A stretch of 64,000 nt of DNA from Azoarcus indigens. GTDB lineage: Bacteria; Pseudomonadota; Gammaproteobacteria; Burkholderiales; Rhodocyclaceae. The stretch lies in assembly GCF_004361735.1 (NCBI RefSeq), contig NZ_SNVV01000008.1, positions 62,001 through 126,000 of the forward strand, written 5' to 3'. Shown here in pieces: positions 18,141-34,451 of this stretch (position 1 is the stretch's first letter; every line of letters starts with the position of its first letter). Made by a program: the position numbers and the translations under genes. The notes beneath the pieces were generated by a model. That model worked only from the letters and a program-made list of their open reading frames with translations. It ran no database searches and was not told where the DNA came from.

Positions 18141-19070
18141 TCAGGCGATGAAGCCGAGCACCACGCTCAGGGTGACGAAGGACAGCAGCGTCGCCACCAC
18201 CAGCGCCGCCGAGCACATGCCCTCCTGGCCATACTTCAGGCCGAAGATGGGGTAGATGGTGAGCATGGGCGCGGCGGCGAACACCACCGCCGCGCTGCGC
18301 AGCGCCGGGTCGGCCGGCGGGAACACCAGCACGAAGGCGGCCACCGCCAGCGGGTGCAGCACCAGCTTGCCGAGGGAGATGGCGGCGAGGTCGCCCGCCA
18401 TGCCCCTCACCTTCTGCCCGACCAGGCCGCCGCCGATGACGAACAGCGCCACCGGCGCCGACGCGGTGGCCAGCATGTCCACCGCCTTGGCCGGTACGCC
18501 GCCCAGGCGCAGCCCGGCGAGCGAACCGGCGAAGCCGAGCACGATGGCGATCACGATGGGGTTCCTGGTGAGGCGCAGGAAGGTCTGGCCCAGCACCGTG
18601 CGCAGGCTGGCGCCCTGGCCGCCGGCGCTTTCCGCCAGCGCGATGACGAAGGGCAGCAGCAGCAGGTTCTCCACCAGCATGCACAGCGCCAGGGCGACGC
18701 CGGCGGTTTCGCCGAAGAGCTGCCAGGCCACCGGGAAGCCGACGAAGGCGCTGTTGGACATCGCCGCGCCCATGCCCACGAGCGCGCAGCCCTGGGCGTT
18801 CTTCTTCAGCAGGTAGCGCGCGGCGCCCAGCGCCAGCAGGAAGACCAGCAGCGAGCCGGCGAGGTAGGCGGCGACGTAGTTGGGGTCCATCACCTCGCCG
18901 AAGCTGCGTTGCAGCAGGGCGCGGAACAGCACCGCCGGCAGGGCGATGTTGATGACGAAGGCGCCCAGCACCCGCATGTCCTGGCGCGGAAACAGGCCGC
19001 CGCGCACGCAGGTGTAGCCGAGGGCGATGATGAGGAAGATGGGGCCGACGATGGTCAGGATGTCGAGCAA
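18141..19070 (-). CDS. AEC (auxin efflux carrier) family transporter
   Basis: The protein is 309 aa with about ten membrane helices. It begins MLDILTIVGPIFLIIALGYTCVRGGLFPRQDMRVLGAFVINIALPAVLF, the standard AEC N-terminus. The inner repeat GMGAAMSNSAFVGFPVAWQLFGETAGVALALCMLVENLLLLPF carries the asparagine-rich crossing region of the family. It lies at the distal end of the pmd gene series, about 330 bp after the aldo/keto reductase gene. Relatives transport malonate, malate or other carboxylates, so it may handle an acid connected with the pathway (inference). Confidence 0.85.
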   Translation of the reverse strand: MLDILTIVGPIFLIIALGYTCVRGGLFPRQDMRVLGAFVINIALPAVLFRALLQRSFGEVMDPNYVAAYLAGSLLVFLLALGAARYLLKKNAQGCALVGMGAAMSNSAFVGFPVAWQLFGETAGVALALCMLVENLLLLPFVIALAESAGGQGASLRTVLGQTFLRLTRNPIVIAIVLGFAGSLAGLRLGGVPAKAVDMLATASAPVALFVIGGGLVGQKVRGMAGDLAAISLGKLVLHPLAVAAFVLVFPPADPALRSAAVVFAAAPMLTIYPIFGLKYGQEGMCSAALVVATLLSFVTLSVVLGFIA

Positions 19071-19402
19071 GGTGGTTCTCCGGGCATGAGAAGGGCCGCG
19101 TTCCCGGCGAGCGGCGGACGCGGCCCTGCATCAATGCGCGCATGCGGCGCGCTTCGTTTGTTGCGACTTCGTTTGCTGCATCGAACTGGACGACCAAAGC
19201 CGCCCACGCGGGCACGCCGGCAGGCGCTACACCAGCCGATGGTTCTGCGCCTGTGTATTCAGGAGCGGAGGCCCTGCCCCCGGCAAGCCCGGCAAACCGC
19301 GGCCCGCCGCCTGGCCGCGGGGAGCCGGATCGTTCCAGGCCCCCACCTCTTACCGGGCGCTGGCAAGACCACCGACAGCGGGTCCGATTCCTGGCGGGGG
19401 CA
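19071..19402. other. Gene-free stretch with a GC hairpin
   Basis: This is the gap between the aldo/keto reductase and AEC genes. It contains a hairpin with perfect 9-bp arms GGGCCGCGT (19093-19101) and ACGCGGCCC (19118-19126), without a T-tract, just upstream of the AEC start. No open reading frame in the gap has credible features. The distance suggests that the AEC gene may be transcribed separately from the pmd operon. Confidence 0.45.
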
Positions 19403-20398
19403 TCAGAACTCCTCGGTATCGATCTCGGTCTGGGTCGGCGCGTTGTAGCGCGGGCCGGTGACGGTGCGCTGGCTGACCAGTTCGCCGGCGCGCGCCAGCA
19501 GCGTCGGGTCCAGCTTCAGGTCGGCGGCGGCCAGGTTCTCTTCCAGGTGGTCGATGCGGGTGGTGCCGGGAATCGGCAGCACATGCCCGCCTTGCGCCAG
19601 CAGCCAGGCCAGCGCGAGTTGGGCCGGGGTGCAGCCGGCTTCCCGCGCCCGCGCGCGGTAGTCGTCCAGCAGTTTGAGGTTGGCAACGAGGTTGTCGCCC
19701 TGGAAGCGCGGCATGGCGCGGCGGATGTCCTTGGCGTCGAAGGCGGCCACGTCTTCCACCGTGTGGAAGGCGTCCGCCAGGTAGCCGCGCGCCACCGGGC
19801 TGAAGGCGACGAAGGCGGCGCCCAGCTCGCGGCAGGCGTCCAGCACCGCGATCTCGGCGTTGCGCGTCCACAGCGAGTATTCGGTCTGCACCGCGGCCAC
19901 CGGATGCACCGCATGGGCGCGGCGCAGGGTGTCGGCGGAGACTTCGGACAGGCCGACCGCGCGGATCTTGCCGGCGGCCACCAGCTCGGCCATCGCGCCC
20001 ATGCTGTCTTCGATGGGCACTTTCTTGTCCCAGCGGTGCAGGTAGTAGAGGTCGATGACGTCGGTGCGCAGGCGAGCGAGTGCTTCGTCGCAGGTGCGCT
20101 TGATGGTTTCCGGTCGGCCGTCGATGACGCGCTTGCCGTCCACCCCCGTCATGCCGCACTTGCTCGCCAGCGTGAAGCGCGAGCGGTAGGGCGACAGCAC
20201 CCGCCCGACCAAGGTTTCATTGGCGCCGAAGCCGTAGAGGGCGGCGGTGTCGAAATGGGTGACGCCCAGGTCCAGCGCCCGCAGCAGCACCTTTTCGGCG
20301 GCTTCCGGCGCCGGTGGCACGCCGTAGGCGTGGCTGAGATTCATGCAGCCCAGGCCGATGGCGCTGACCGGGAAGGGTCCGAGATTGCGTTGATGCAT
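19403..20398 (-). CDS. Aldo/keto reductase
   Basis: The protein is 331 aa. The ATG at 20398 (MHQRNLGPFPVSAIGLGCMNLSHAYG) has an AAGGAG ribosome-binding site; the open frame extends a little upstream. The catalytic tetrad of the AKR family is visible: Asp and Tyr in FDTAALYGFGANETLVGRVL, Lys in FTLASKCGM and His in IDLYYLHRWD. The C-terminal NADPH-binding segment LPIPGTTRIDHLEENLAAADLKL is present. It belongs to the YajO/AKR13-like group. It follows pmdC by about 185 bp on the same strand and could reduce an aldehyde related to the pathway; the substrate is unknown. Confidence 0.88.
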   Translation of the reverse strand: MHQRNLGPFPVSAIGLGCMNLSHAYGVPPAPEAAEKVLLRALDLGVTHFDTAALYGFGANETLVGRVLSPYRSRFTLASKCGMTGVDGKRVIDGRPETIKRTCDEALARLRTDVIDLYYLHRWDKKVPIEDSMGAMAELVAAGKIRAVGLSEVSADTLRRAHAVHPVAAVQTEYSLWTRNAEIAVLDACRELGAAFVAFSPVARGYLADAFHTVEDVAAFDAKDIRRAMPRFQGDNLVANLKLLDDYRARAREAGCTPAQLALAWLLAQGGHVLPIPGTTRIDHLEENLAAADLKLDPTLLARAGELVSQRTVTGPRYNAPTQTEIDTEEF

Positions 20399-20583
20399 GC
20401 GCAGCTCCTTGGAAATGACTGCGCCGGCGCGGGGCCGGCGGAGCATGAAACAGAAACGGAGCAGCCCGGCCGGGGCGGCTCCGTGAAGCGATGCTGCGGC
20501 GGTCCACCCGGCGGCCAGGGGAAAAGCCGGCCCTCCCCTTGCCGCCGGCGCGCCCGCCGGGCCGCCGTCGCGGCCTTACGGCA

Positions 20584-21540
20584 TCAGTCCTTCAACTGCT
20601 GTTCCAGCTGGGCCAGCACTTCGTAGCAGGGCAGCACCTTGGCGACGCTGGAGTTGGGCTCGCGGCCTTCGCGGATGGCGGCGAAGAACTCGCGGTCCTG
20701 CAACTCGATGCCGTTCATCGACACATCCACCTTGGAGACGTCGATCCTCTCTTCCTTGCCATTCACCAGGTCGTCGTAACGGGCGATGTAGGTGCCGGTG
20801 TCGCCGATGTAGCGGAAGAAGGTGCCCAGCGGGCCGTCATTGTTGAACGACAGGCTCAGCGTGCAGATGGCGCCGTTGGCGGCCTTGAGCTGGATGCTCA
20901 TGTCCATGGCGATGCCCAGCGTCGGATGGATGGGGCCCTGGATGGCGTTGGCCTTCACGATCGGGCTGCCGGCCTGGTAGGCGAACAGGTCCACGGTGTG
21001 GGCGGCGTGGTGCCACAGCAGGTGGTCGGTCCAGCTGCGCGGCTGGCCGAGCGCGTTCATGTTGGTGCGGCGGAAGAAGTAGGTCTGCACATCCATCTGC
21101 TGGACGTTGAACTCGCCGGCTTCGATCTTCTTGTGCACCCACTGGTGGCTGGGGTTGAAGCGGCGGGTGTGGCCGCACATCGCGACCAGGCCGGTTTCCT
21201 GCTGCAGGCGCACCACTTCCTGGGCGTCTGCCAGGGAGTCGGCCAGCGGGATTTCGACCTGCACATGCTTGCCCGCGCGCAGGCAGGCGATGGCCTGCGA
21301 GGCGTGCATCTGGGTCGGGGTGCACAGGATCACCGCGTCCACTTCCGGCAGCGCCAGGCTGTCGGCGAGGTCGGTGGTGATGTGGCCGATGCCGTACTTG
21401 TCTGCCACTTCCTTGGTCTTTTCCAGGTCGCGGCTGACCAGCGACACCACTTCGACGCCGTCGATGTTCTTGATGCCGTCCAGGTGCTTGATGCCGAAGG
21501 CGCCGGCGCCAGCCAGCGCAACCTTGATCGTCTTGCTCAT
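20584..21540 (-). CDS. pmdC: 4-carboxy-2-hydroxymuconate-6-semialdehyde dehydrogenase (PmdC/LigC)
   Basis: The protein is 318 aa of the Gfo/Idh/MocA family. The Rossmann motif is VALAGAGAFGIKHL. The usual EKP triad is replaced by EIP in KHVQVEIPLADS, as expected for the LigC group. The segment CGHTRRFNPSHQWVHKKIEAGEF and the DHLLWHHAAHTVDLFAYQAG region match known LigC/PmdC proteins. It oxidises the hemiacetal form of the ring-cleavage product to 2-pyrone-4,6-dicarboxylate with NADP. It lies 107 bp after pmdB, in the same order as the Comamonas pmd operon. Confidence 0.92.
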   Translation of the reverse strand: MSKTIKVALAGAGAFGIKHLDGIKNIDGVEVVSLVSRDLEKTKEVADKYGIGHITTDLADSLALPEVDAVILCTPTQMHASQAIACLRAGKHVQVEIPLADSLADAQEVVRLQQETGLVAMCGHTRRFNPSHQWVHKKIEAGEFNVQQMDVQTYFFRRTNMNALGQPRSWTDHLLWHHAAHTVDLFAYQAGSPIVKANAIQGPIHPTLGIAMDMSIQLKAANGAICTLSLSFNNDGPLGTFFRYIGDTGTYIARYDDLVNGKEERIDVSKVDVSMNGIELQDREFFAAIREGREPNSSVAKVLPCYEVLAQLEQQLKD

Positions 21541-21647
21541 TTACTACCCCCGTTTGTCATGTATGCCAAACAGCCCCCCGAGGGGGCCTCGTCCGTCTTG
21601 GGACGGCCCTGCGACGGTCTCGTCGATTCCAGCAGGGCGAAACTGCT

Positions 21648-22958
<1,311 letters not shown>

Positions 22959-22978
22959 CTATGCCGGGCGCGCCGCGC

Positions 22979-23893
22979 TCAGACTTCTTCCGGCCAGTAC
23001 AGCCGCATCGGGTTGTCGACCAGCAGCTTCTGCTGCAGCTCGGCGGTGGGGGCGATGTGGGGGATGAAATCCACCAGCAGGCCGTCGTCCGGCATGTGGT
23101 CCTTGAGGTTGGGGTGCGGCCAGTCGGTGCCCCACAGCACGCGGTCGGGGAAGCTCTCGACCACCTTGCGGGCGAAGGGCACCACGTCGCGGTAAGCGTT
23201 GCGCTCGCCGTCCAGCGCGCGCGGGCCGGTCACCGACAGGCGCTCCGGGCAGCTTACCTTGCTCCACACATTTTCGTTCTCGCGCATGAACTTGAGGAAG
23301 AGCTCGAACTCGGGACCGTCGACCGGCTTGCTCACGTCTGGCCGCCCCATGTGGTCCACCACCACCGTGGTCGGCAGCGCGGTGAAGAAGTCCCACAGCT
23401 CGGGCAGGTCCACCGCCTCGAAGTAGATCACCACATGCCAGCCCAGCGGGGCGATGCGGCTGGCGATCTCCAGCAGCTCGTCCTTGGGGGTGAAGTCCAC
23501 CAGGCGCTTGACGAAGTTGAAGCGCACGCCGCGCACGCCGGCTTCATGCATCGCCTTCAGCTCTCCGTCGGTGACGCTGCGGCGCACGGTGGCCACGCCG
23601 CGGGCCTTGCCGCCGGAATGCACCAGCGCATCCACCATGGCGCGGTTGTCGGCGCCGTGGCAGGTGGCCTGGACGACGACGTTGCGGGCGAAGCCGAGGT
23701 GGTCGCGCAGGGCGTAGAGCTGGTGCTTGCTGGCGTCGCAGGGGGTGTACTTGCGCTCCGGCGCGTAGGGGAACTCCGCCCCCGGACCGAACACATGGCA
23801 GTGCGCATCCACCGCACCGGCAGGGAGCTTGAACTGAGGTTTGGTCGGGCCCTGATACCAGTCGAGCCAGCCGGGGGTCTTGGTGAATTCCAT
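22979..23893 (-). CDS. pmdD: 2-pyrone-4,6-dicarboxylate hydrolase (PmdD/LigI)
   Basis: The protein is 304 aa from the ATG at 23893 (MEFTKTPGWLDWYQGP); the open frame extends upstream without support. It belongs to the amidohydrolase_2 family: the first motif is DAHCHVFGPGAEFPYAPERKYTPCDA, the strand-8 motif is LWGTDWPHPN, and the strand-6 region is TTVVVDHMGRPD. These match LigI, which opens the pyrone to 4-oxalomesaconate without a strict metal need. It stands directly before pmdA. In the Comamonas operon pmdD follows pmdF; here three other genes lie between them. Confidence 0.92.
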   Translation of the reverse strand: MEFTKTPGWLDWYQGPTKPQFKLPAGAVDAHCHVFGPGAEFPYAPERKYTPCDASKHQLYALRDHLGFARNVVVQATCHGADNRAMVDALVHSGGKARGVATVRRSVTDGELKAMHEAGVRGVRFNFVKRLVDFTPKDELLEIASRIAPLGWHVVIYFEAVDLPELWDFFTALPTTVVVDHMGRPDVSKPVDGPEFELFLKFMRENENVWSKVSCPERLSVTGPRALDGERNAYRDVVPFARKVVESFPDRVLWGTDWPHPNLKDHMPDDGLLVDFIPHIAPTAELQQKLLVDNPMRLYWPEEV

Positions 23894-23964
23894 GTCGCGT
23901 TCCACTAAGGCAAGTTGTTGTCGGTAAAAGGCCGGGCGGCCTGCGGGGACGCCCGGCGCGGGTT

Positions 23965-24969
23965 TCATCGGCTGGCGGGCTTCCAGGGCACCACACTGAC
24001 CGTGTCGGCGATGTCGAAGCGCATCAGGTCTTCGCCCATCGCCAGCGGACCGTCATAGACCGTCTGCGTGGCCTGCCTGACGTCGTTCACCGACATCGGC
24101 GGGTACTTCTTGGTGGCGGGCAGCACGTAATGGGTGTAGGCCGCCAGCTTCGGCCGGGTTTCGGCGAAGATCCTGCCGGCCTGCTCCGGGGTGGAGTGGT
24201 GGTCCATGATGGGCTGCATCTTGGGGTTCTCTTCCAGCAGGCCGGGGCGGGCGGCGGCGACTTCGTGGATCAGCAGATCCACGCCCTTGCCGTACTTGAG
24301 CACGCCGGGCGAGGGCCGGGTGTCGCCGGAGATCAGCACCGAGCGGCCGCCGTAGTCGATGCGGTAGCCCACCGAAGGGTGGATCTTCTCGCCATGCTCA
24401 TTGGGAAAGGCGGTGACCTTGACGCCGCCCTGCTCGTACACCACGCCGCCGGCCTCATCGAACTCGGTGACGTCGAACTTCACGCCGGCCAGCGGCAGGC
24501 CTTCGTCCGCCACACGCACCGCGAGGTCGTCCGCATAGGCGGCCTCCAGCCCCCTGGTGAGATTACCCAGGCCCTTGGGGCCGGTGATGCGGAAGGGCGT
24601 GGTACGCCCGCCATAGGCGGTGGATACCCAGCCGGTAAGCCACAGGTCGACGAGGCCGTTGGTGTGGTCGAAGTGGTAGTGGGTCAGGAAGACATGATCC
24701 ACGCTGCGCAGCGGCAGGCCGAGCTGCCACAGGCGGATGGTGACGCCGCGGCCGGCGTCGAACACCAGGTTCTGGCCGCCGGCCTGCACCAGCACCGCGC
24801 CACCGAAGCGCTCGGCGTTGGGATTGGGCGTGCCGGTGCCCAGCAGCACCACGCTGAAATCCCTGGCGGACGAGGCGGCGGCAGCCGGCTCGGCGGCATG
24901 CACCGCGGTGGTGGATAAGGCAATCAGCGCAGCGGCGATGGCGCTGCCCAGCTGGTTCTTCAGTTTCAT
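23965..24969 (-). CDS. Exported MBL-fold hydrolase (RNase Z/arylsulfatase-like)
   Basis: The protein is 334 aa. The ATG at 24969 starts a signal peptide (MKLKNQLGSAIAAALIALSTTAVHA-AEP), so it should act in the periplasm. The metal site HxHxDH is HYHFDH at residues 97-102. Other MBL signatures are LLGTGTPNPNAERFGGAVLV, FDAGRGVTIRL and ISGDTRPSPG, and later LIHEVA and YTHYVLP. This pattern belongs to the RNase Z/AtsA/PhnP-like branch. RNase Z proper would not be exported, so a small-molecule hydrolase (ester, sulfate ester or lactone) is more likely. It lies between pmdD and the DUF1932 gene, where the Comamonas operon has no gene. Confidence 0.85.
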   Translation of the reverse strand: MKLKNQLGSAIAAALIALSTTAVHAAEPAAAASSARDFSVVLLGTGTPNPNAERFGGAVLVQAGGQNLVFDAGRGVTIRLWQLGLPLRSVDHVFLTHYHFDHTNGLVDLWLTGWVSTAYGGRTTPFRITGPKGLGNLTRGLEAAYADDLAVRVADEGLPLAGVKFDVTEFDEAGGVVYEQGGVKVTAFPNEHGEKIHPSVGYRIDYGGRSVLISGDTRPSPGVLKYGKGVDLLIHEVAAARPGLLEENPKMQPIMDHHSTPEQAGRIFAETRPKLAAYTHYVLPATKKYPPMSVNDVRQATQTVYDGPLAMGEDLMRFDIADTVSVVPWKPASR

Positions 24970-25054
24970 CTCACGGTCTCCTTCGGGTGGTATTGGCCAT
25001 GCCGCGCCGGGCGGACATGTGCCTTTCTGAAATCGGTTTGCCATTGCGCCACGC

Positions 25055-25981
25055 TCACTCGCCGCCCTTCCCCAGGCTGTGCAGGATGCGGTCGGCCTCG
25101 GTGCGCCAGTCGGCGCTGCGGGCGAATTCGGGTGCGGCCCGGTCGCCGAACAAGCCGGCATCGGCGAGGTCGGCGATCCAGGCCTGGCGCTCGGCGGTGC
25201 CGGCGGCGGACCAGGGCACGAGGCCGGCCTCGCGCACCGTCTGCGCCACTTCGCGCACTTCCTCGCTGCGGCGGCGGCCGTGCTGGATGACGCGCTGGAA
25301 GAAATAGGCGGCCTGCTTTTCCCAGTCGATGCCGGGGAAGGTCTCGTACAGCGAGGCCAGCACCGCGTCCTCCACGCCGTAGTGGCGGGCGGTGGTGAGG
25401 CTTTCGATGACCATGGCTTCCATGCCCTTGATCATCACGCTGCGGCACATCTTGGTGGCGGAGGCCACGCCCAGGCGCACGTCCGCGATCTGCGCCTCGA
25501 AGCCGAGGGATGCCAGCGCCGGCGCCAGCGCCGCCGCGTGCCGCCCGCCCAGCAGCAGCGGCACACGGATGCGGTAGGGCGGCACTGAGGTCATCACCGC
25601 GCCTTCCACGTAGCGGCCCCCTGCCCCGTCGATGATCTCCGCCGCGCGGCGCTTGGCGCCGGGCGAGGCGGAGTTGAAGTCGAGGAAGAAGATGCCGGCG
25701 GCCACGCCGGGTACGCAGGCCTGGGCCACGGCCACCGCCTGGCTGGCGGTGACGGCTGAGATGAGGAGCTCGCACTCGGCGGCGACCTGGGCATGGGAGG
25801 CGGCCAGGGTGACGCCATGCGCGGCGGCATGCTGGCGCAGCGGCGCGGCGGCGGTTTCGTCTGCCAGCTTGAGGTCGAAGGCGGACACCGCGACGTCGAG
25901 CGCGCGCAGGTCCTCGGCCAGGATGCGGCCCACCTCGCCGTAGCCGATGAGACCGACACGCAGGACGAGCGGCCCGTCCAT
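25055..25981 (-). CDS. NAD(P)-dependent oxidoreductase with DUF1932 C-terminal domain
   Basis: The protein is 308 aa of the beta-hydroxyacid dehydrogenase superfamily. The N-terminal Rossmann motif is VGLIGYGEVGRILAEDL. The central segment GIFFLDFNSASPGAKRRAAEII resembles the substrate-binding region of 3-hydroxyisobutyrate/6-phosphogluconate-type dehydrogenases. The catalytic lysine is expected in SATKMCRSVMIKGMEAMVIESL, followed by the DUF1932 helical domain. The start overlaps the upstream MBL gene stop by one base, so the two are translationally coupled. Its substrate is probably a hydroxyacid derived from the MBL product (inference). Confidence 0.85.
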   Translation of the reverse strand: MDGPLVLRVGLIGYGEVGRILAEDLRALDVAVSAFDLKLADETAAAPLRQHAAAHGVTLAASHAQVAAECELLISAVTASQAVAVAQACVPGVAAGIFFLDFNSASPGAKRRAAEIIDGAGGRYVEGAVMTSVPPYRIRVPLLLGGRHAAALAPALASLGFEAQIADVRLGVASATKMCRSVMIKGMEAMVIESLTTARHYGVEDAVLASLYETFPGIDWEKQAAYFFQRVIQHGRRRSEEVREVAQTVREAGLVPWSAAGTAERQAWIADLADAGLFGDRAAPEFARSADWRTEADRILHSLGKGGE

Positions 25982-26985
25982 CACAGCACCATCAGGTCCT
26001 TGCCGACGACGACTTCGCCCTTGTAGTGCTTGCGCACGCCTTCGAGCCACATCTCGTCGGTGATGCCGGGGTCGTCGCCCGGCACCAGGTGGGTCAGCAC
26101 CAGCTTCTTCACCCCGGCCTCGGCGGCCACGCGGCCGACGTCCTCGGTGGTGGTATGGCTGGCGAGCAGGTGTTCGCGCAGGGTGGCGGCGTTGGGCACG
26201 CGCTTGAGCATGGCGTCCACGCCCGGCACGTAGATGGCCTCGTGCACCAGCACGTCGGCGCCGGTGGCGAGCTTGACGATGGCCTCGGAATAGTTGGTGT
26301 CGCCGGACACCACCACGCTGCGGTCGCGCGTATCGAAGCGCAGGCCGTAGGAGTGGTGGATGGGCGGATGGATGTTGCGCGCGGCGCTGACCTTGACCTG
26401 GGCGTTTTGCAGGATCACGCCGTCGCGGTCGTAGGTGTGCGTCTCCACCAGCTTGCGCGGGTCGGGCTTGCCCTCGTCGCCGATGCGGGTGTCGATGTCG
26501 AACTTCATGTACTCGAAGAAGGCCTGCGTCATCTCTTCGAGCGGCGGCGGCCCATAGACGGCGACCTTGTCCTTCAGCCCGGTGGCCCAGGCGCTGTAGA
26601 GCAGGCCGCCGTACTCCAGGTTGTGGTCGGAGTGCATGTGGGTGAGGAAGACGTAGCGCAGGTCGCGCAGCGAGATGCCGGCCTGCACCAACTGGCGGGC
26701 CACGCCCTGGCCGCAGTCGATGACGTAGGGCACGCCGTCTATCAGCAGCGCGGTGCAGGGGTTGGAGCGCTCGCCGCCCACCCGCGGGCCGCCCTTGGTG
26801 CCGACCAGGATGATGCGGGTGCCGCTGGCGCTGGCCGCCGGCTGCTGCGCCCATGCAGGCAGCCCCAAGCCGGCGGCGGCGAGGCCGCCGAAGCCGGCCA
26901 GGCCAGCCAGCAGCGCGCGGCGCTGCGGGTCGGCCTGGGATGGGGGGAAATGCTTGCCTAGGGTGTCGATCTCGTTCGCCTTCAT
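25981..26985 (-). CDS. Exported (Tat-like) MBL-fold hydrolase
   Basis: The protein is 334 aa. The N-terminus carries a twin arginine (QRRALLAGLAGFGGLAAAGLGLPAWAQ), suggesting Tat export, so a folded metal-loaded enzyme is plausible. The metal site is HMHSDH at residues 116-121. Further MBL elements are ILVGTKGGPRVGGERSNPCTALLI, VIDCGQGVARQL, VVSGDTNYSEA, VLVHEAIYVPG and LVLTHLVPGDD. It is related to, but clearly different from, the MBL protein at 23965-24969. It is the first gene of the inserted three-gene unit; a 206-bp gap separates it from pmdF, so it may have its own promoter. Confidence 0.85.
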   Translation of the reverse strand: MKANEIDTLGKHFPPSQADPQRRALLAGLAGFGGLAAAGLGLPAWAQQPAASASGTRIILVGTKGGPRVGGERSNPCTALLIDGVPYVIDCGQGVARQLVQAGISLRDLRYVFLTHMHSDHNLEYGGLLYSAWATGLKDKVAVYGPPPLEEMTQAFFEYMKFDIDTRIGDEGKPDPRKLVETHTYDRDGVILQNAQVKVSAARNIHPPIHHSYGLRFDTRDRSVVVSGDTNYSEAIVKLATGADVLVHEAIYVPGVDAMLKRVPNAATLREHLLASHTTTEDVGRVAAEAGVKKLVLTHLVPGDDPGITDEMWLEGVRKHYKGEVVVGKDLMVL

Positions 26986-27191
26986 GCTCTCTGTCTCCTC
27001 CGGGCCGGGGGTGGTGGGGACTGCGCCCCTCTCTTGACGAAAACCGCGTGCTTGCGGCCTGCTTGCGGACCGGCCTCCGGCGAGGGAGGCCGGCCGCGGG
27101 ATTCACATCGCTCGATCTACCTCGTCGAGTTGCTTCGGCGGGATTCGGGGCCGGCCACCCGGCGCCACCGGGTGAGCGCCGGGGCCGGACA

Positions 27192-27887
27192 TCAGTCGAT
27201 GTACTTCAGGCCAGCCTTTTCCAGCGGCTCGCGCATCTTGTACATGTCCAGGCCGAGCACGCCGGAAGCCAGCTTGGCGCGCTTCTCGCCTTCGAAGGAC
27301 TCGCGCTTCTCGGCGGCGTCCGCCACCTGCTGGGCGATGGCGGCGGGCACCACGACCACGCCGTCCACATCCGCGATGACGACGTCGCCCGGATTCACCA
27401 GCGCGCCGGCGCACACCACCGGGATGTTCACCGAGCCCAGCGTGGCCTTGATGGTGCCCTTGGCATGGATGGCCTTGGAGAACACCGGGAAGCCCATCTT
27501 CTCCAGCTCTTCGACGTCGCGCACGCCGCCGTCGATGATCAGGCCCTTGGCCCCGCGAGACTGGAAGGAGGTGGCGAGCAGGTCGCCGAAGAAGCCGTCC
27601 TCGTTGTCGGTGGTGCAGGCGGCCACGGCGACGTCGCCCGGCTGCAGCTGCTCGGCGGCCACGTGCATCATCCAGTTGTCGCCCGGCTGCAGCAGGATGG
27701 TGACGGCGGTGCCGCAGATCTTGGCACCGGAATACACCGGGCGCATGTAGGGCTTCATCAGGCCGACGCGGCCCATCGCTTCGTGGATGGTGGCGACGCC
27801 GAACTTGGACAGCTTCTCCACCGCCGCCTTGTCGGCGCGGACGATGTTGCGCTTGACGATGCCGAGCTGGTTCATCGGTTGGCTCAT
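27192..27887 (-). CDS. pmdF: 4-carboxy-4-hydroxy-2-oxoadipate aldolase (PmdF/LigK)
   Basis: The protein is 231 aa of the RraA-like class II aldolase family. The ATG at 27887 ([26 protein letters not shown]) follows AAGGAGAG; an open frame upstream is ignored. Key parts are [60 protein letters not shown] and [14 protein letters not shown]. The Asp/Arg pair in GGVRD and the downstream Asp of the family are present. It cleaves the hydroxy-oxoadipate into pyruvate and oxaloacetate and also decarboxylates oxaloacetate. It lies 13 bp after pmdE. Confidence 0.93.
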
Positions 27888-27900
27888 CTTCGTTCTCTCC

Positions 27901-28926
27901 TTACAGGCCCTTGGCCTTGAGCGCAGCGTCCAGGCGCGGATAAACCCGGCGGGCGTTGCCCTCATAGATCTTGTAGCGGTCTTCGGCGCTGATCGCGGCG
28001 GCCTCGATGTAGCGCTTGGTGTCGTCGTAGTAGTAGCCGGTCTCGGGGTCGATGCCGCGCACCGCGCCTATCATTTCGGAGGCGAACAGCACGTTCTCGA
28101 CCGGGATCACCTTGGTCAGCAGGTCGATGCCCGGCTGGTGATAGACGCAGGTGTCGAAGAAGATGTTGTTCAGCAGGTGATCCTTCAGCAGCGGCTTCTT
28201 CAGCTCCTGCGCCAGGCCGCGGAAACGGCCCCAGTGGTAGGGCACCGCGCCGCCGCCGTGCGGGATCACGAACTTCAGCGTGGGGAAATCCTTGAACAGG
28301 TCGGAGGTGAGGCACTGCATGAAGGCGGTGGTGTCCGCGTTCAGGTAGTGGGCGCCGGTGGTGTGGAAGCAGCTGTTGCAGCTGGTGGACACGTGCACCA
28401 TGGCCGGAATGTCGTACTCGACCATCTTTTCGTAGATGGGGTACCAGTGGCGGTCATGCAGCGGCGGGCTGGTCCAGTGGCCGCCGGAGGGGTCCGGATT
28501 GAGGTTGATGCCGACGAAACCGTATTCCTTGACGCACTTTTCCAGTTCGGGAATGCAGGTCTTGGGATCGACGCCAGGGGACTGCGGCAGCATCGCAGCG
28601 CCGATGAAGTTGTCCGGGAACAGCTGGGAGACGCGATAGCACAGTTCATTGCAGATCGCCGCCCAAGTGGAGCTGGTGTTGAAATCGCCGATGTGGTGGG
28701 CCATGAAGCTGGCGCGCGGCGAGAAGATGGTGAGGTCGGAGCCGCGCTCCTTCATCAGACGGAGCTGGTTCTTCTCGATGGTCTCGCGCAGGTCGTCGTC
28801 ACTGATCTGCAGCTCGGAGACCTTGGGCGTGGCCGAGGGATCCTTCAGCCCCGCGATCTGGCGGTTGCGCCATTCTTCGAGCGCTTTCGGTGCGGTGGTG
28901 TAGTGACCATGACAGTCGATGATCAT
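27901..28926 (-). CDS. pmdE: 4-oxalomesaconate hydratase (PmdE/LigJ)
   Basis: The protein is 341 aa of the amidohydrolase_2 family, starting [24 protein letters not shown]. LigJ features include [73 protein letters not shown] and [23 protein letters not shown]. Zinc-binding His residues of DCHGH and of the IPHGGG region are present. It hydrates oxalomesaconate to 4-carboxy-4-hydroxy-2-oxoadipate. It follows pmdK and precedes pmdF as in Comamonas. Confidence 0.94.
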
Positions 28927-28958
28927 CGTTTTGTCCTTTTGTCGTCGTACTCGGAACC

Positions 28959-28997
28959 GGCCTTGTGGGGCGGCCGCGCGGGCCGCCCCACAAGGCC
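28959..28997. other. Perfect 16-bp hairpin between pmdK and pmdE
   Basis: GGCCTTGTGGGGCGGC (28959-28974) pairs with GCCGCCCCACAAGGCC (28982-28997) over a 7-nt loop. There is no T-tract on either strand. It most likely stabilises the 3' end of the pmdK part of the mRNA, or separates expression levels inside the operon, rather than ending transcription. Confidence 0.55.
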
Positions 28998-29002
28998 AAC
29001 TA

Positions 29003-30367
29003 TTAGTGGGCGTGAACCTCTTCGGCAACCCGCTTGGCCGCACCGGAGGGCTCCGGATGGGCAAACTGCTTGATCAGCAGCGCCACCGCGGCGATCAGCG
29101 CCGGCACCGCGACCACCATGAAGATCTCGCTGAAGCTCAGCTGGCGGCGCGACAGTTCCGCCACCAGGAAGGAGCCGGCGATACCGCCGAAGCGGCCGAT
29201 GCCCAGCATCCAGGACACGCCGGTGGCGCGGCCCGCAGTCGGATAGAAGGCGGCGGCCAGCGCCGGCAGCGAGGACTGGGCGGTGTTCATGATGGTGCCG
29301 GCGACGAACACCACTACCACCAGGGTGCCGACGCTGCCCACCACTTCACCGATGGAGAAGATGGCGATGGCGGTCAGCAGCCAGCCCACCGCGATGATGC
29401 GGTTGGCGTTGAAGCGGTCCATCAGCCAGCCGAAGAACACCGCGCCCACGCCGCCCAGCGGGAACAGCGCGGCGATCAGGGTCGCCTGCCCGGGGGCCAG
29501 GCCGGCGTCCTTGAACAGCACCGGCATCCAGTTCATCAGCGCGTAGAAGATCACCAGGCCCATGAAGTAGGACAGCCACAGCATCACGGTGCCGACGGCG
29601 TAAGCGCGCGAGAACACCACGCCCAGGCCGCTCTTGCCCTCCACCACCGCCTTGGTCTCGCTCATAACGAAGGAGGAGGCGGAGGACACGCTGGCGGAAA
29701 TGCGGCTCAGCACGGCGCGGATGCGGTCGGCGGACTGGGCCTTGGCCACCATGTAGCGCACCGACTCCGGCAGCAGGACGAGCAGCAGCACGACCAGCAG
29801 CAGCGGCGCGATGCCACCTAGCGTCAGCACGCTGCGCCAGCCCCACTGCGGAATCATCCACGCCGCCAGGAAGCCGCCGAAGGCCGCGCCCAGCGGGAAA
29901 CCGCAGAACATGGCGTTGGTGATCATGGCGCGGCGCTTGTCCGGGCAGTACTCGCTCATCAGCGTGACCGCGTTCGGCATGGCCGCGCCCAGGCCGAGGC
30001 CGGTGACGAAGCGCAGTTCGGTGAGCATGCGCAGATCGGTGGCGAAGGACGAGGCCAGGCAGGCCAGGCCGAATACCAGCACCGAGCCCACCAGCACCTT
30101 CTTGCGCCCGAGGCGGTCCGCCAGCGGGCCGGCGGACAGGGCGCCGGCGGCCAGGCCGAACAGCGCCGCGCTCAGCACCGGAGCCAGGTCGGGCTTGCTG
30201 ACGCCCCATTCCTGGATCAGCGAGGGCGCGATGTAGCCGATGGCGGCGGTGTCGAAGCCGTCCAGCAGCACGATGAAGAAACACAGGCCGAAGATGGCCC
30301 ACTGGAAGCGGGAGAAAGGGTGCCCGTTGATGAACGCCTGCACATCCACAGGCTGCTGCTTGCTCAT
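29003..30367 (-). CDS. pmdK: MFS aromatic acid:H+ symporter (PmdK/PcaK type)
   Basis: The protein is 454 aa of the AAHS family, with 12 predicted helices. The N-terminal signature is LLDGFDTAAIGYIAPSLIQEWG, including the DGxD residues needed by PcaK-type permeases. Motif A appears as GPLADRLGRKKVLV. The loop between helices 6 and 7 is long and polar. It should import protocatechuate or 4-hydroxybenzoate. It lies between pmdU and pmdE, the position occupied by pmdK in the Comamonas operon. Confidence 0.93.
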   Translation of the reverse strand: MSKQQPVDVQAFINGHPFSRFQWAIFGLCFFIVLLDGFDTAAIGYIAPSLIQEWGVSKPDLAPVLSAALFGLAAGALSAGPLADRLGRKKVLVGSVLVFGLACLASSFATDLRMLTELRFVTGLGLGAAMPNAVTLMSEYCPDKRRAMITNAMFCGFPLGAAFGGFLAAWMIPQWGWRSVLTLGGIAPLLLVVLLLVLLPESVRYMVAKAQSADRIRAVLSRISASVSSASSFVMSETKAVVEGKSGLGVVFSRAYAVGTVMLWLSYFMGLVIFYALMNWMPVLFKDAGLAPGQATLIAALFPLGGVGAVFFGWLMDRFNANRIIAVGWLLTAIAIFSIGEVVGSVGTLVVVVFVAGTIMNTAQSSLPALAAAFYPTAGRATGVSWMLGIGRFGGIAGSFLVAELSRRQLSFSEIFMVVAVPALIAAVALLIKQFAHPEPSGAAKRVAEEVHAH

Positions 30368-30497
30368 TGTGCGTCTCCGATGAGCGAGTGGAAGGGACGC
30401 TCTCTGGCGTTTGAAGGGGTCGTTTCCGGATGCGCCAGCCTCGCTGGGAAGGCTCCGGCTCGCCGTTTGGGTGGATTAACTTGAAACGGTGTGCCGC

Positions 30498-31580
30498 CTA
30501 CGGTTTCCAGACCGAGGCCGGCACCATCACCTCGCCACGCATCAGCAGGCGCGCGGTGCGCAGCAGGGCGGCGCGGGTGACGTTCTGCGGGTTCGCCGGA
30601 TCGAGCGCCAGCTCGACCGAGAACTCGCCGGTGGGATGCTCCACCGAGACCTTCTTGGCGTCGCCCTCCGGCACCACCGCGATGCCTTCGGTGACCGAGC
30701 CTTCCAGCACGCAGGCGGTCGCCACGGTGACCGCGGCAAGCACGCCGATGGCGTCGTGGCAGACGTGCGGGATGAAGCTGCGGGTGCTGAGGCTGCCGCC
30801 GTCGCGCGGCGGGGCGATCAGCGTCATCTTCGGGTAGTTCTTGGCGCTGACGTCGCCCAGCCCCATGGCGTGGCCACAGGCCAGGCGCAGGCGCTCGATG
30901 CGGGCCTTGAGTTCGGTATCGGCGTTCAGCTCGGCCACCGTCTCGTAGCCGGTACGGCCGACGTCGGCGGCGCGGAAGATCACCAGCGGCATGCCGTTGT
31001 CGATGCAGGTGACCTCGACGCCGTCGATCACGTCGCGCACCTTGCCGGTGGGCAGCAGGCCGGAACAGACCGAACCGGCGGTATCCAGGAAGTTGATGGT
31101 GATGGGCGCCGAACTGCCGGGCACGCCGTCGATGCGCGCATCGCCCTCGTACTCCACCACGCCCCCCGGGGTGCGCACGGTGATGTCGCACTGCATGTCG
31201 GTGTTCAGCGTGAGCACGCGGAAGGTGGAGGTGTCGCCCTGCGGCTGGACCAGGCCGGTCTCCAGCGCGAAGGGCACCACCGCCGCCAGCATGTTGCCGC
31301 AGTTTGGGGTGGTGTCCACCGTGTCCTTCTCCGGCTGCAACTGGGCGAAGAGGAAATCCAGATCCACGCCCGGCACTTCGCTGCGGCGGACGATGCCGAC
31401 CTTGCTGGTGAGGGGGTGGGCGCCGCCCAGGCCGTCGATCTGGCGGCGGTCGGGCGAACCCATCACAGCCAGCAGCACACGGTCGCGGGTAGCGATGTCG
31501 GCGGGCAGGTCGGACTCCTTGAAGAAGGGTCCGCGCGAGGTGCCGCCACGCATGAACAGGGTCGGGATAGGGGTTTGCAT
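30498..31580 (-). CDS. pmdU: 4-oxalomesaconate tautomerase/isomerase (PmdU, GalD/LigU family)
   Basis: The protein is 360 aa of the PrpF (diaminopimelate epimerase-like) family. It starts MQTPIPTLFMRGGTSRGPFFKESDLP, the hallmark of the family. Other segments are IDGLGGAHPLTSKVGIV, VDTTPNCGNMLAAVVPFALE (with the conserved Cys) and HVCHDAIGVLAAVTVATACVLEGSV. It interconverts keto and enol or double-bond isomers of oxalomesaconate so that PmdE can use them. It is the first gene of the minus-strand operon and is divergent from the LysR gene. Confidence 0.92.
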   Translation of the reverse strand: MQTPIPTLFMRGGTSRGPFFKESDLPADIATRDRVLLAVMGSPDRRQIDGLGGAHPLTSKVGIVRRSEVPGVDLDFLFAQLQPEKDTVDTTPNCGNMLAAVVPFALETGLVQPQGDTSTFRVLTLNTDMQCDITVRTPGGVVEYEGDARIDGVPGSSAPITINFLDTAGSVCSGLLPTGKVRDVIDGVEVTCIDNGMPLVIFRAADVGRTGYETVAELNADTELKARIERLRLACGHAMGLGDVSAKNYPKMTLIAPPRDGGSLSTRSFIPHVCHDAIGVLAAVTVATACVLEGSVTEGIAVVPEGDAKKVSVEHPTGEFSVELALDPANPQNVTRAALLRTARLLMRGEVMVPASVWKP

Positions 31581-31647
31581 GGGATGATTATGGGAGCCGC
31601 CAACCCGGTTCGACAGGGGCGGGCCGCTCTATCAGCTATTCCTTTTT

Positions 31648-31660
31648 GCGATATCATCGC
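31648..31660. promoter_or_regulatory. Candidate operator GCGAT-ATC-ATCGC in the pmdU/LysR intergenic region
   Basis: This is a perfect 5-bp inverted repeat with a 3-bp spacer in the 111-bp gap between pmdU and the divergent LysR gene. It lies in the most AT-rich part of the gap, beside a T-tract (CCTTTTTGCG). Its location suits binding by the LysR protein to control the pmd operon and itself. Confidence 0.45.
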
Positions 31661-31691
31661 TGCAGTTATTCTCTCCTTGGCAGTGCGCGGC

Positions 31692-32651
31692 ATGGATCTG
31701 AAGCAGCTGGAATACTTCGTCCGGGTAGCAGAACTGGGCAGCTTCACCCGCGCCTCCATCGCCCTGGACATCGCCCAGCCGGCGCTGAGCCGGCAGGTAC
31801 GGCTGCTGGAGGTGGAGCTGCGCCAGAGCCTGCTGATCCGCAACGGCCGCGGCGTCACCACCACCGAGGCCGGCAAGCTGCTGCTGGAGCACGGCCGCGG
31901 CGTGCTGCACCAGATAGAGCGCGCCAAGGAAGAGCTGGCCCGGGTGCGCGGCACCCTGAGCGGCCGCGTCGCCCTCGGCCTGCCGCCCAGCCTGTCCAAG
32001 GTGCTCACCGTGCCGCTGACGCGGGAGTTCCGCGCCCGCCTGCCGGAGGCTTCGCTGTCCATCACCGAAGGCCTGTCCACCACCATGCAGGAATCCCTGG
32101 TGAGCGGCCGGCTGGATATCGCGGTGCTTTACAACGCGGTGGCCTCGCCGGACGTGGACCTGATCCCGCTGCTGGAGGAAGAGCTCTTCCTCATCGAGCG
32201 CAAGAGTAACGCCGGCCCGCAGCCGGTGATCCTGAAGGAGATCGCCGCCCGCGAGCTGGTGATCCCCAGCCGCCCTCACGCGATGCGCATGCTGATCGAA
32301 TCCGAGCTGGCCAACATCGGCTGCCGGCCGCGCATCGCGCTGGAGATAGACAGCGTGGCCGCCATCCTCGACCTGGTGGCGGACGGCGCCGGCAGCGCGG
32401 TGCTGACGATGAACGCGGTGACTGCCTCCGGCAATGCGGACGCCTTCGACGTCCACCCCATCGTCTCACCCACAGTGCGCAGCAAGCTGATGCTGGCCAT
32501 CAGCTCGCGCCGGCCGGCGACGCTGACGCAGCAGGCCATGCTGGAGTTGATCGCCGAGACCGCAAGCGGCCTGGTGGCCGGCGCCACCCCCGCGGGCATC
32601 GCCGCCGCGGCTGGCCCTGCGCCCCGCCGCACTGTGCCGAAGTCCTCATAA
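31692..32651 (+). CDS. LysR-type regulator of the pmd operon
   Basis: The protein is 319 aa. The ATG at 31692 begins MDLKQLEYFVRVAELGSFTRASIALDIAQPALSRQVRLLEVEL, the typical LysR HTH; the much longer open frame upstream is antisense to pmdU and is not coding. It belongs to the CbbR/NAC-like subgroup (QPALSRQVRLLEVELRQSLLIRNGRGVTTTEAGKLLLEHG). Being divergent from pmdU, it is probably the functional counterpart of the LysR regulators of the Comamonas pmd operon, but the exact orthology is not certain. Confidence 0.92.
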   Translation: MDLKQLEYFVRVAELGSFTRASIALDIAQPALSRQVRLLEVELRQSLLIRNGRGVTTTEAGKLLLEHGRGVLHQIERAKEELARVRGTLSGRVALGLPPSLSKVLTVPLTREFRARLPEASLSITEGLSTTMQESLVSGRLDIAVLYNAVASPDVDLIPLLEEELFLIERKSNAGPQPVILKEIAARELVIPSRPHAMRMLIESELANIGCRPRIALEIDSVAAILDLVADGAGSAVLTMNAVTASGNADAFDVHPIVSPTVRSKLMLAISSRRPATLTQQAMLELIAETASGLVAGATPAGIAAAAGPAPRRTVPKSS

Positions 32652-32653
32652 AA

Positions 32654-32691
32654 CGCTAAAGGAGTACCCCGGCCGTACCGCTAAGGGGGTA
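32654..32691 (+). repeat. Two direct repeats CGCTAA(A/G)GG(A/G)GTA upstream of the chemoreceptor gene
   Basis: CGCTAAAGGAGTA (32654-32666) and CGCTAAGGGGGTA (32679-32691) match at 11 of 13 positions and start 25 bp apart, close to two and a half turns of the helix. They lie just after the LysR stop and about 115 bp upstream of the chemoreceptor start. Tandem sites of this kind suggest binding of a dimeric regulator; which one is unknown. Confidence 0.5.
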
Positions 32692-32804
32692 TCTTTCCCC
32701 ACGCAGGGCAGTCCGCCTGCACCCCGGCGGGCAGTTCGGCACGCCCTCCGGCGCAACGCACAAACGACACAACGATGCCGCTACCGAGGCGGCCGGAGGA
32801 GACT

Positions 32805-34451
32805 ATGACGCGCCCAACCCCGCGTGCGCCGGGCAAGAGCCTGGCCGTCCGTACCCTGCTCTACCTCGCCATCCTGCTGCAGATCGCCCTCGCCCTCGTC
32901 CTCGGCCTGCTGGGCATCAAGGGCATGTATTCCACCCTCAACGGACTGGATGGCGTCTATAACCAGCGGGTGATTCCGCTGCGCGACCTCAAGGTCATCT
33001 CCGACGAATACGCGGTCGCCATCGTCAACGCCACCCAGAAGGTGCGCGACGGCACGCTGACGCCGGAGGATGGCGCCGCCGTGATGGAAAAGGCGCACAA
33101 GCTGATCGGCGAGAAATGGCAGGCCTTCCGCGCCGGCCAGCTTTCCCCGCGCGAGCAGGAGCTGGTGAAGACCGCCGAGCCACTGATGGCCACCGGCGAC
33201 AAGCTGGTCACCGAGATGATCGAAAAGCTCAAGCTCGGCGCCCTGAGCGAAATCCACGCGGTGGCCGAGCGGGTGCTCTACCCCACCATGGACCCGATCT
33301 CGGCGGTGATCCGCGAGCTGATCGAGGCCCAGCTCGAAAGCGCCCGCCACGAGTACGAGCAGGAACAGGCCGCCTTCCAGCAGGCGGTGGTGGTGATGCT
33401 GGCGATGATCCTGCTGGCGGCCGCCATCTCCGGCATCGGCGGCTTCATCTTCGCCCGCAACTTCCTGATGCGGCCGCTGGAGGACGCCCGCCGCTTCGCC
33501 ACCGACATCGCCGGCGGCAACCTCGCCACCGAGATCCGCATCCACCGCGACGACGAGATCGGCAGCCTGGCGATAGCCCTGCGCAGCATGCAGCAGGAGT
33601 TGCGCAACATGGTGCGGCTGATCCAGGACAACGCCGAGCGCATCGCCTCCGCCAGCGAGAACCTGGCCGGCAACACCGGCGCCATCTCCACCGCCAGCGC
33701 CCAGCAGTCCGGCGCGGCCGAGTCCATCGCCGCCGCCATCGAGCAGATGACCACCTCCATCACCCACGTCTCCGCCTTCACCGCGGATGCGCGCAAGATC
33801 GCCACCGAGTCCGGCGACACCGCGCAGAGCGGCGCCGAGGTGATACGCCGGGTGGTTAGCGATATCCAGCGCGTGGCCCAGTCGGTGGACCAGTCCGCCG
33901 AGGCCATCCGCAACCTCGGCCAGCAGTCCAAGGAGATCGCCACCGTGGTCACTGTGATCAAGGAGGTGGCGGACCAGACCAATCTGCTGGCGCTGAACGC
34001 CGCCATCGAGGCCGCCCGCGCCGGCGAACAGGGCCGCGGCTTCGCCGTCGTGGCCGACGAAGTGCGCAAGCTGGCCGAGCGCACCGCCGCCTCCACCGAG
34101 GACATCGCCCGCATCGTCGGCCTGATCACCACCGGCACCGATTCCGCGGTGCGCGCGATGGACGAGCAGGTGCGCGGCGTGCAGCGCAGCGTCGCCCTGG
34201 CCGGCGAGGCCGGCGAGGCCATCGCCCGCATCAACGATTCCTCGCAGCAAGTGGTGTCTACGGTGAGCGACGTCTCCTCCGCGCTGGACGAACAGGCCAC
34301 CACCAGCACCGAGATTGCCCGCGGCATTGAGGAGATCGCCGCCATGAGCGGCCGCAACCGCGAATCCACCCAGGAGGTGGATGAGGCCACCCGTGAGCTG
34401 GCCGGCTTGTCCCAGCAGCTGCGGGAAACGGTGCGCCGCTTCCGCCTCTGA
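32805..34451 (+). CDS. Methyl-accepting chemotaxis protein with a four-helix-bundle sensor
   Basis: The protein is 548 aa. The ATG at 32805 follows GGAGGAG. Order of parts: cytoplasmic N-tail, membrane helix (about 15-38, [20 protein letters not shown]), periplasmic helical domain of the 4HB_MCP type (about 40-195), second helix ([22 protein letters not shown]), HAMP ([34 protein letters not shown]), and a signalling domain with the hairpin tip [41 protein letters not shown]. No C-terminal CheR-binding pentapeptide is seen. Its position beside the pmd regulator suggests that it senses aromatic acids, like the Pseudomonas PcaY receptor, which also has a helical-bundle sensor (inference). Confidence 0.93.

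Follow-up and report, generated by a model that had tools for sequence, protein, structure and literature searches.

We analysed a stretch of 64,000 nucleotides from Azoarcus indigens (contig NZ_SNVV01000008.1, positions 62,001 to 126,000; hereafter the window, in whose own numbering coordinates are given), and found on its minus strand a protocatechuate 4,5-cleavage (pmd/lig) operon with the order ligU-pmdK-ligJ-ligK-MBL1-DUF1932-MBL2-ligI-ligA-ligB-ligC-aldo/keto reductase and a divergent LysR gene. Between ligK and ligI lie two genes for metallo-beta-lactamase (MBL)-fold hydrolases, MBL1 and MBL2, one on each side of a DUF1932 dehydrogenase gene. DUF1932, although uncharacterised, regularly belongs to operons of this type and is not an insert; what is new here is the MBL genes flanking it, the rest being a known operon type. 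We propose that the operon has a slot for accessory genes between ligK and ligI, in which DUF1932 would be the long-standing resident and to which exported hydrolases feeding the pathway would have been added, a reading that as a whole falls a little short of probable. The slot and its borders are as follows.

27192..27875, minus strand: LigK/PmdF, CHA aldolase (TIGR02798, 423.5 bits against a cut-off of 304.5)
26986..27191, minus strand: ligK-MBL1 gap, 206 bases
25981..26985, minus strand: MBL1, MBL-fold hydrolase, 334 amino acids, Tat-like leader (Pfam over cut-off)
25055..25981, minus strand: DUF1932 dehydrogenase, 308 amino acids, 6PGDH/beta-hydroxyacid dehydrogenase fold (Pfam over cut-off)
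23965..24969, minus strand: MBL2, MBL-fold hydrolase, 334 amino acids, Sec-like leader, RNase Z/PNGM-1-like (Pfam over cut-off)
22979..23905, minus strand: LigI/PmdD, 2-pyrone-4,6-dicarboxylate (PDC) hydrolase (named by homology and place)

DUF1932 in protocatechuate operons

The initial annotation had taken the three genes for one insert. The genes, all intact and on the minus strand, stand as described in their coordinates and in the one base that the DUF1932 ATG and the MBL1 stop have in common, and Pfam supports all three. The single insert does not stand, since DUF1932 occupies the slot without MBL genes elsewhere, including in two congeners; one MBL gene was thus added on each side, and the three genes of the window's slot would have at least two origins.

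An order-wide scan of 399 genomes found a DUF1932 relative in 38 at E 1e-20 (41 matches including the window's). We fetched 31 of the other 40 loci, the nine omitted all having E values between 1e-30 and 1e-20. In 24 of the 31, one or more of LigI, LigAB, LigC, LigJ, LigK and LigU lies near DUF1932 at 40% identity or more; the seven loci with no pathway gene are L034, L040, L041, L042, L058, L061 and L062, among which L034 and L061 are contigs of less than 5 kb. DUF1932 lies between ligK/pmdF and ligI/pmdD in ten of the 31, all ten without MBL1: eight hold it directly (L043-L048, L050, L052), and two have a PobA gene next to it (L049, L051) that passes its equivalog cut-off (TIGR02360, 565 of 538.7 bits). 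The same ligK-DUF1932-ligI order is found on a Diaphorobacter plasmid. Azospirillum lipoferum has ligK followed by DUF1932, and in a Klebsiella record a tautomerase gene stands between these two, with frames resembling transporters and dioxygenases upstream. A tree of DUF1932 proteins places the window copy within a 17-row group (SH-aLRT 98) in which all rows but one come from slot loci.

The DUF1932 protein meets the Pfam cut-offs for PF09130 (63.5 of 25 bits) and NAD_binding_2 (32.4 of 21 bits) and stays below the equivalog cut-offs for 3-hydroxyisobutyrate dehydrogenase (HIBADH) and tartronate semialdehyde reductase (35.1/291.6, 28.8/397 and 20.1/340.75 bits). Its predicted structure is nearest to 3qsg, 4ezb and 1i36 (Z 32.6, 32.1 and 26.4; identity 34, 34 and 31%), whose titles state no substrate; HIBADH and gamma-hydroxybutyrate dehydrogenases score Z of about 22-24.5. 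Residues K177, R180, K185, R237 and R238 are invariant (K177 in 30 rows), which would fit an anionic substrate, and K177 we take, by its motif, to be the catalytic lysine. The protein would be a cytosolic enzyme that depends on NAD(P) and has the 6PGDH/beta-hydroxyacid dehydrogenase fold. Its substrate is probably an anionic carboxylate among the intermediates of the LigK/LigJ/LigU end, and it would serve the cytosolic pathway independently of the MBL proteins. Separately, a distant DUF1932 relative adjoins an HpcH/HpaI aldolase gene at L041 (9698-11394), and L040 has the same neighbour cluster, hinting at further aldolase-DUF1932 pairs.

The two MBL genes

From a scan of genome contigs for MBL1 relatives, the best 80 of at least 592 stretches were kept; the gene caller had overlooked the MBL gene in 12 of these 80 loci. 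Three lie beside protocatechuate genes: those of Comamonas testosteroni ATCC 11996 and C. suwonensis, both ordered ligK-MBL1-ligI, and that of a Rhodocyclales metagenome-assembled genome (MAG; L132), ordered MBL1-DUF1932-ligI on a contig that starts at MBL1, so that the ligK side is out of view. Only these three of the 80 best relatives reach 70% identity. The remaining 77 have no lig/pmd gene in the available flanking DNA, some stretches being only 3.7 kb. At L138 the MBL1 relative adjoins a PF00884 sulfatase gene, a single case.

Across 53 genomes of the genus Comamonas, MBL1 was found in six and LigI in 45. The slot of these 45 holds MBL1 in six, DUF1932 in three, a TctC/Bug-type binding protein (named from its sequence by eye) in one and no gene in 35, with gaps of at most 378 bases; MBL1 directly adjoins ligI in all six. 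The MBL1 genes of G739 and G763 are identical across the compared stretch, so the six count for fewer than six independent cases. The order pmdUKEFDABC, quoted at the outset and taken here to be that of Comamonas, is interrupted in the six LigI-bearing genomes with MBL1 between pmdF and pmdD. Within the window's own family, MBL1 relatives occur in 5 of 168 genomes, with pathway genes nearby only in the window and one sister species (G400), the flanks of the other three being 1.5 kb. Among 349 genomes around G049 (f49), two have MBL1-like proteins (59 and 49% identity), neither with a pathway gene within its 1.5-kb flanks. MBL1 relatives were found in 107 plasmid records and MBL2 relatives in 104, every one below 60% identity, and neither of two plasmid MBL1 regions inspected carries this operon.

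The operon copies of MBL1 thus number nine: the window, G400, the six Comamonas genomes and the MAG. They form one clade (SH-aLRT 99) with none of 40 other relatives inside, in a tree of 50 rows made by a quick method with no bootstrap and leaving out L170-L211 (42 of the 80 loci). Each of the nine sits between ligK and ligI, the ligK side of L132 being off its contig. The Comamonas and MAG copies differ from the window's by about 27-34%, which suggests that the place in the operon has been kept for long. A gene-neighbourhood search had been proposed for the three genes together; MBL1 recurs as just described, while the full trio was seen in the window and G400.

MBL1 keeps the HxHxDH motif and all remaining metal ligands: H116, H118, D120, H121, H206, D229, H277 and H299 are invariant in an alignment of 33 rows, and all of these but H277 we take, by analogy with RNase Z, to bind metal. 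The Tat-like leader of MBL1 and the Sec-like leader of MBL2 were read by eye. That of MBL1 has a twin arginine (..PQRRALLAGLAG..AWAQQ), and so have those of C. testosteroni and C. suwonensis (L133, L134). Among 30 MBL1-type rows, 17, including these three, have an RR motif ahead of a hydrophobic stretch; in the 13 with no visible RR, the stretch taken mostly begins downstream of the motif. Structure prediction (mean pLDDT 88, below 50 in the leader), suggested at the outset, placed MBL1 nearest to the MBL arylsulfatase 8gyg of Pseudoalteromonas atlantica, above RNase Z: 8gyg is the top solved match by sequence (E 8e-39) and by Foldseek (3e-29), and aligns at Z 37.8 and 1.8 Å over 272 residues (VIA-align), against 33.3 for RNase Z. 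Curated RNase Z models score below their cut-offs (132.2 of 363 and 109.7 of 292.95 bits), as do all the NCBIfam MBL models for both MBL1 and MBL2, and models for AHL lactonases match MBL1 weakly (E 6e-4 to 9e-4). Identity to 8gyg, the best match among all solved chains, is about 30% and sits at the 30% limit used for AtsA in the available part of PMC5066984. A MenH-type CHMOD hydrolase of syringate catabolism was ruled out as an identity for MBL1, which is not of the alpha/beta fold; DesC and MgaC are alpha/beta-fold hydrolases according to the available part of PMC12314914.

MBL2 begins at an ATG preceded by a ribosome-binding-like AAGGAG, and its leader, read by eye, is MKLKNQLGSAIAAALIALSTTAVHAAE. 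In an alignment of seven rows H97, H99, D101, H102, H192, D216 and H280 are invariant; these are presumably its metal ligands, by analogy with RNase Z. Its nearest solved relative is PNGM-1 (E 4e-26 over 36-321); it falls below the curated RNase Z cut-offs (144.8 of 363 and 106.7 of 292.95 bits) and that of the GntH model (178 of 333 bits). Two genomes, those of the window and of the sister G400, were the only ones seen to carry MBL2 within the operon. We also fetched five MBL1-like loci outside the operon, and none has a pathway gene. A Bug/TctC-type binding protein gene lies at most two genes away in 7 of 20 non-operon MBL loci (L106, L108, L111-L114, L119). Four loci of these surveys were read by tblastn, L104, L107 and L116 having no genes called and L052 one.

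The window's genus was sampled by four genomes: the window (G000), G400, G388 and G399. G400 has the window's arrangement (identity 97% for MBL1, 95% for DUF1932 and 97% for MBL2). In G388 and G399 the order is ligK-DUF1932-ligI, the gap between the first two genes being 2 bases; both MBL genes are absent from these operons, and genome-wide no relative of MBL1 appears at E 1e-30. Between the window and these two, LigU, LigJ, LigI, LigA, LigB and LigC have 88-95% protein identity, LigK only 75%, DUF1932 75-77% and the aldo/keto reductase 82-85%; PmdK is 79% identical in G388, and none was found in the G399 stretch. The window's LigK is 92% like that of G027, from another family. With the drop in LigK and DUF1932, this points to a probable exchange of a block around ligK-DUF1932 in one lineage or the other, which may also have brought in the MBL genes. 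No compositional sign of recent foreign origin was seen (GC/GC3 69.2/94.6 for MBL1 and 67.9/89.3 for MBL2, like the rest). Block exchange also allows the MBL genes to be passengers with no role on protocatechuate, which is most arguable for MBL2 with its two genomes. We think this unlikely: MBL1 has kept its place and intact ligands across three diverged lineages, and a passenger would be expected to be lost, or to be found elsewhere as well.

The gap between ligK and MBL1 contains a 37-base block with the dyad CTCGA-9-TCGAG that is identical in G400, with largely different flanks. Of this block, 35 bases occur once each in the G000 and G400 genomes and are absent from G388 and G399; the block may be a regulatory site. 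With up to one mismatch allowed, the window has 2 matches to the dyad pattern against a chance mean of 2.65, so the pattern is no rarer than expected. The gap does not fold clearly better than its shuffles (z -1.1), a promoter scan gave no promoter-like site, a terminator scan gave 7 terminator-like sites, not clearly above the mean of 6.3, and an Rfam scan of 19000-32800 gave no match at gathering scores.

Proposed exported feeder hydrolases and their alternatives

In the role we favour, MBL1 and MBL2 would be dinuclear-zinc hydrolases, probably periplasmic, that split a sulfate or carboxylic ester conjugate and so release protocatechuate or a closely related phenolic acid; the freed acid would then be taken up, for example by PmdK. 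For MBL1 we would first think of a sulfate ester, since the solved relative nearest to it is an MBL arylsulfatase. Genes in or near the slot of other operons point the same way. PobA, which occupies the slot in two operons of the f38 family (L049, L051), makes protocatechuate, and L051 has in addition a tannase/feruloyl-esterase-family gene between ligI and ligA, with a lipobox by eye. Protocatechuate-delivering genes are thus found in this part of the operon, an argument, though no proof, for MBL1 as a feeder.

Several points weigh against this role. An MBL fold in common says little of substrate, and the proposal is built on predicted folds and operon context. Non-operon relatives of MBL1 have mixed neighbours that give no hint of a substrate. 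MBL2 rests on one lineage, and 15 MBL2-relative loci outside the operon have no pathway gene except a 34% LigI-like frame at L111. MBL1 is rare in the operon (six of the 53 Comamonas-genus genomes and two of the 168 from its own family), and as 35 of 45 Comamonas-genus operons have no slot gene, nothing in the slot is essential. Finally, MBL1 could be regulated separately, given the 206-base gap and the conserved block within it.

MBL1 might instead act in the periplasm as a lactonase, opening PDC that has leaked out so that its carbon can be regained, as an outside counterpart of LigI. Such an enzyme beside ligI is made possible by the secretion of PDC by C. testosteroni KF-1 on 4-hydroxybenzoate, as given in the available part of PMC10154247. 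MBL1 does lie beside ligI in all six Comamonas slots, MBL folds include lactonases, as the weak AHL-lactonase matches recall, and L132 (2839-5029) has a second LigI-like gene and a PF00375 dicarboxylate symporter between ligI and ligA. We nevertheless hold this to be decidedly unlikely, with arylsulfatase and RNase Z nearer to MBL1 than the lactonase models, two genes separating MBL1 from ligI in the window, 39 of the 45 Comamonas-genus genomes with ligI lacking MBL1, and no uptake system identified for the opened product.

That the MBL proteins are RNase Z, phosphodiesterases or beta-lactamases unrelated to aromatics is very improbable: RNase Z, PNGM-1 and GntH models do match, but none of the NCBIfam models reaches its cut-off (RNase Z 132/363 and 110/293 for MBL1, GntH 178/333 for MBL2), and the export-type leaders and the operon clade speak otherwise. 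About as improbable is the unit first proposed, in which MBL hydrolysis outside is followed by cytosolic oxidation by DUF1932. It has for it the one-base overlap, the flanking of DUF1932 by MBL genes in G000 and G400 and the pairing of MBL1 with DUF1932 in L132; it is weakened by the occurrence of each gene alone, namely DUF1932 without MBL1 in ten slot loci and MBL1 without DUF1932 in six Comamonas slots, two of these MBL1-bearing genomes, searched whole, having no DUF1932 relative at E 1e-15. What survives of that proposal is the link of leader-bearing RNase Z/AtsA-like hydrolases to the pathway, through the MBL1 clade, the leaders and the arylsulfatase match; the single MBL-DUF1932-MBL unit and its two-step reaction do not.

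Taking feeder and lactonase roles together, it is possible, though still on the doubtful side, that MBL1, including that of C. testosteroni ATCC 11996, cleaves a phenolic sulfate or ester or leaked PDC and that DUF1932 handles a ring-cleavage side product in many operons. The catabolism of lignin and of plastic monomers funnels through protocatechuate, and Comamonas is a studied platform for it (PMC10154247, in the part available). If an exported hydrolase belongs to the C. testosteroni pmd operon, the pathway may accept conjugates not yet tried on it; or, if the lactonase role is true, MBL1 may recapture PDC that engineers want to collect. DUF1932 could reveal a side reaction left out of the textbook pathway.

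The remaining operon and known systems

The full set of steps is present in one direction. The profile scan of the window's proteins reached NCBIfam equivalog cut-offs for ligU, ligK and ligA; ligI, ligJ and ligC reached none when scanned, and these three and ligB are named by family, place and homology. An alternative upstream ATG of ligI, at 23968, overlaps the MBL2 stop. The features beyond the slot are:

31692..32651, plus strand: LysR regulator, divergent
30498..31580, minus strand: LigU/PmdU, 4-oxalomesaconate tautomerase (NF033377, 544.7 bits against a cut-off of 440)
29003..30367, minus strand: PmdK, aromatic acid MFS transporter (profile matches)
27901..28926, minus strand: LigJ/PmdE, hydratase, Amidohydro_2 (homology and place)
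22505..22945, minus strand: LigA/PmdA, protocatechuate 4,5-dioxygenase alpha (TIGR02792, 240.1 bits against a cut-off of 108.6)
21648..22502, minus strand: LigB/PmdB, dioxygenase beta (position and homology to an annotated beta subunit)
20584..21540, minus strand: LigC/PmdC, CHMS dehydrogenase, GFO/IDH/MocA (position and homology)
19403..20446, minus strand: aldo/keto reductase, final operon gene here and in several related operons

The aldo/keto reductase belongs to a cluster of 10 loci, the window included, and we know of no pathway step assigned to it. It is perhaps the counterpart of the putative alcohol/aryl-alcohol dehydrogenases of the pcaG/pcmF kind in the gene-map legend of PMC8431788. 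A PF13531 solute-binding protein of about 220 residues lies beside ligJ or ligK in several related operons (L120 6524-7183; a cluster of 11 loci), and may be the molybdate-transport-like pcaT of the same legend. After the LysR gene comes a methyl-accepting chemotaxis-type protein (32805-34451, plus strand), kept in the congener G388 (L045) and possibly serving chemotaxis to the operon's substrates. The second LigI-like hydrolase of L132 scores 280 bits against a 4-sulfomuconolactone hydrolase model whose cut-off is 500.

No title or abstract opening in the literature covered, which does not extend to the original Comamonas pmd papers, describes MBL or DUF1932 genes in this operon. With the pmd operon of Comamonas and the lig genes of Sphingobium the window shares its enzymes, in one direction (LigU-PmdK-LigJ-LigK-...-LigI-LigA-LigB-LigC), and differs in the two leader-bearing MBL hydrolases and the DUF1932 gene of its ligK-ligI slot; no such genes are named in the figure legend of PMC8431788, which covers one gene map. 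The DUF1932 structures 3qsg, 4ezb and 1i36 have the fold of the window protein, which belongs to a protocatechuate operon. MBL2 shares the MBL core and ligands of RNase Z and PNGM-1, but misses the curated RNase Z cut-offs and has a Sec-like leader. MBL1 shares its fold, the HxHxDH motif and about 30% identity with the MBL-type arylsulfatase 8gyg (SulfAtlas S4, the family of P. carrageenovora AtsA, known on an artificial substrate only according to the available part of PMC5066984). It differs in its Tat-like leader and its place in an aromatic operon, and its sulfatase activity is putative.

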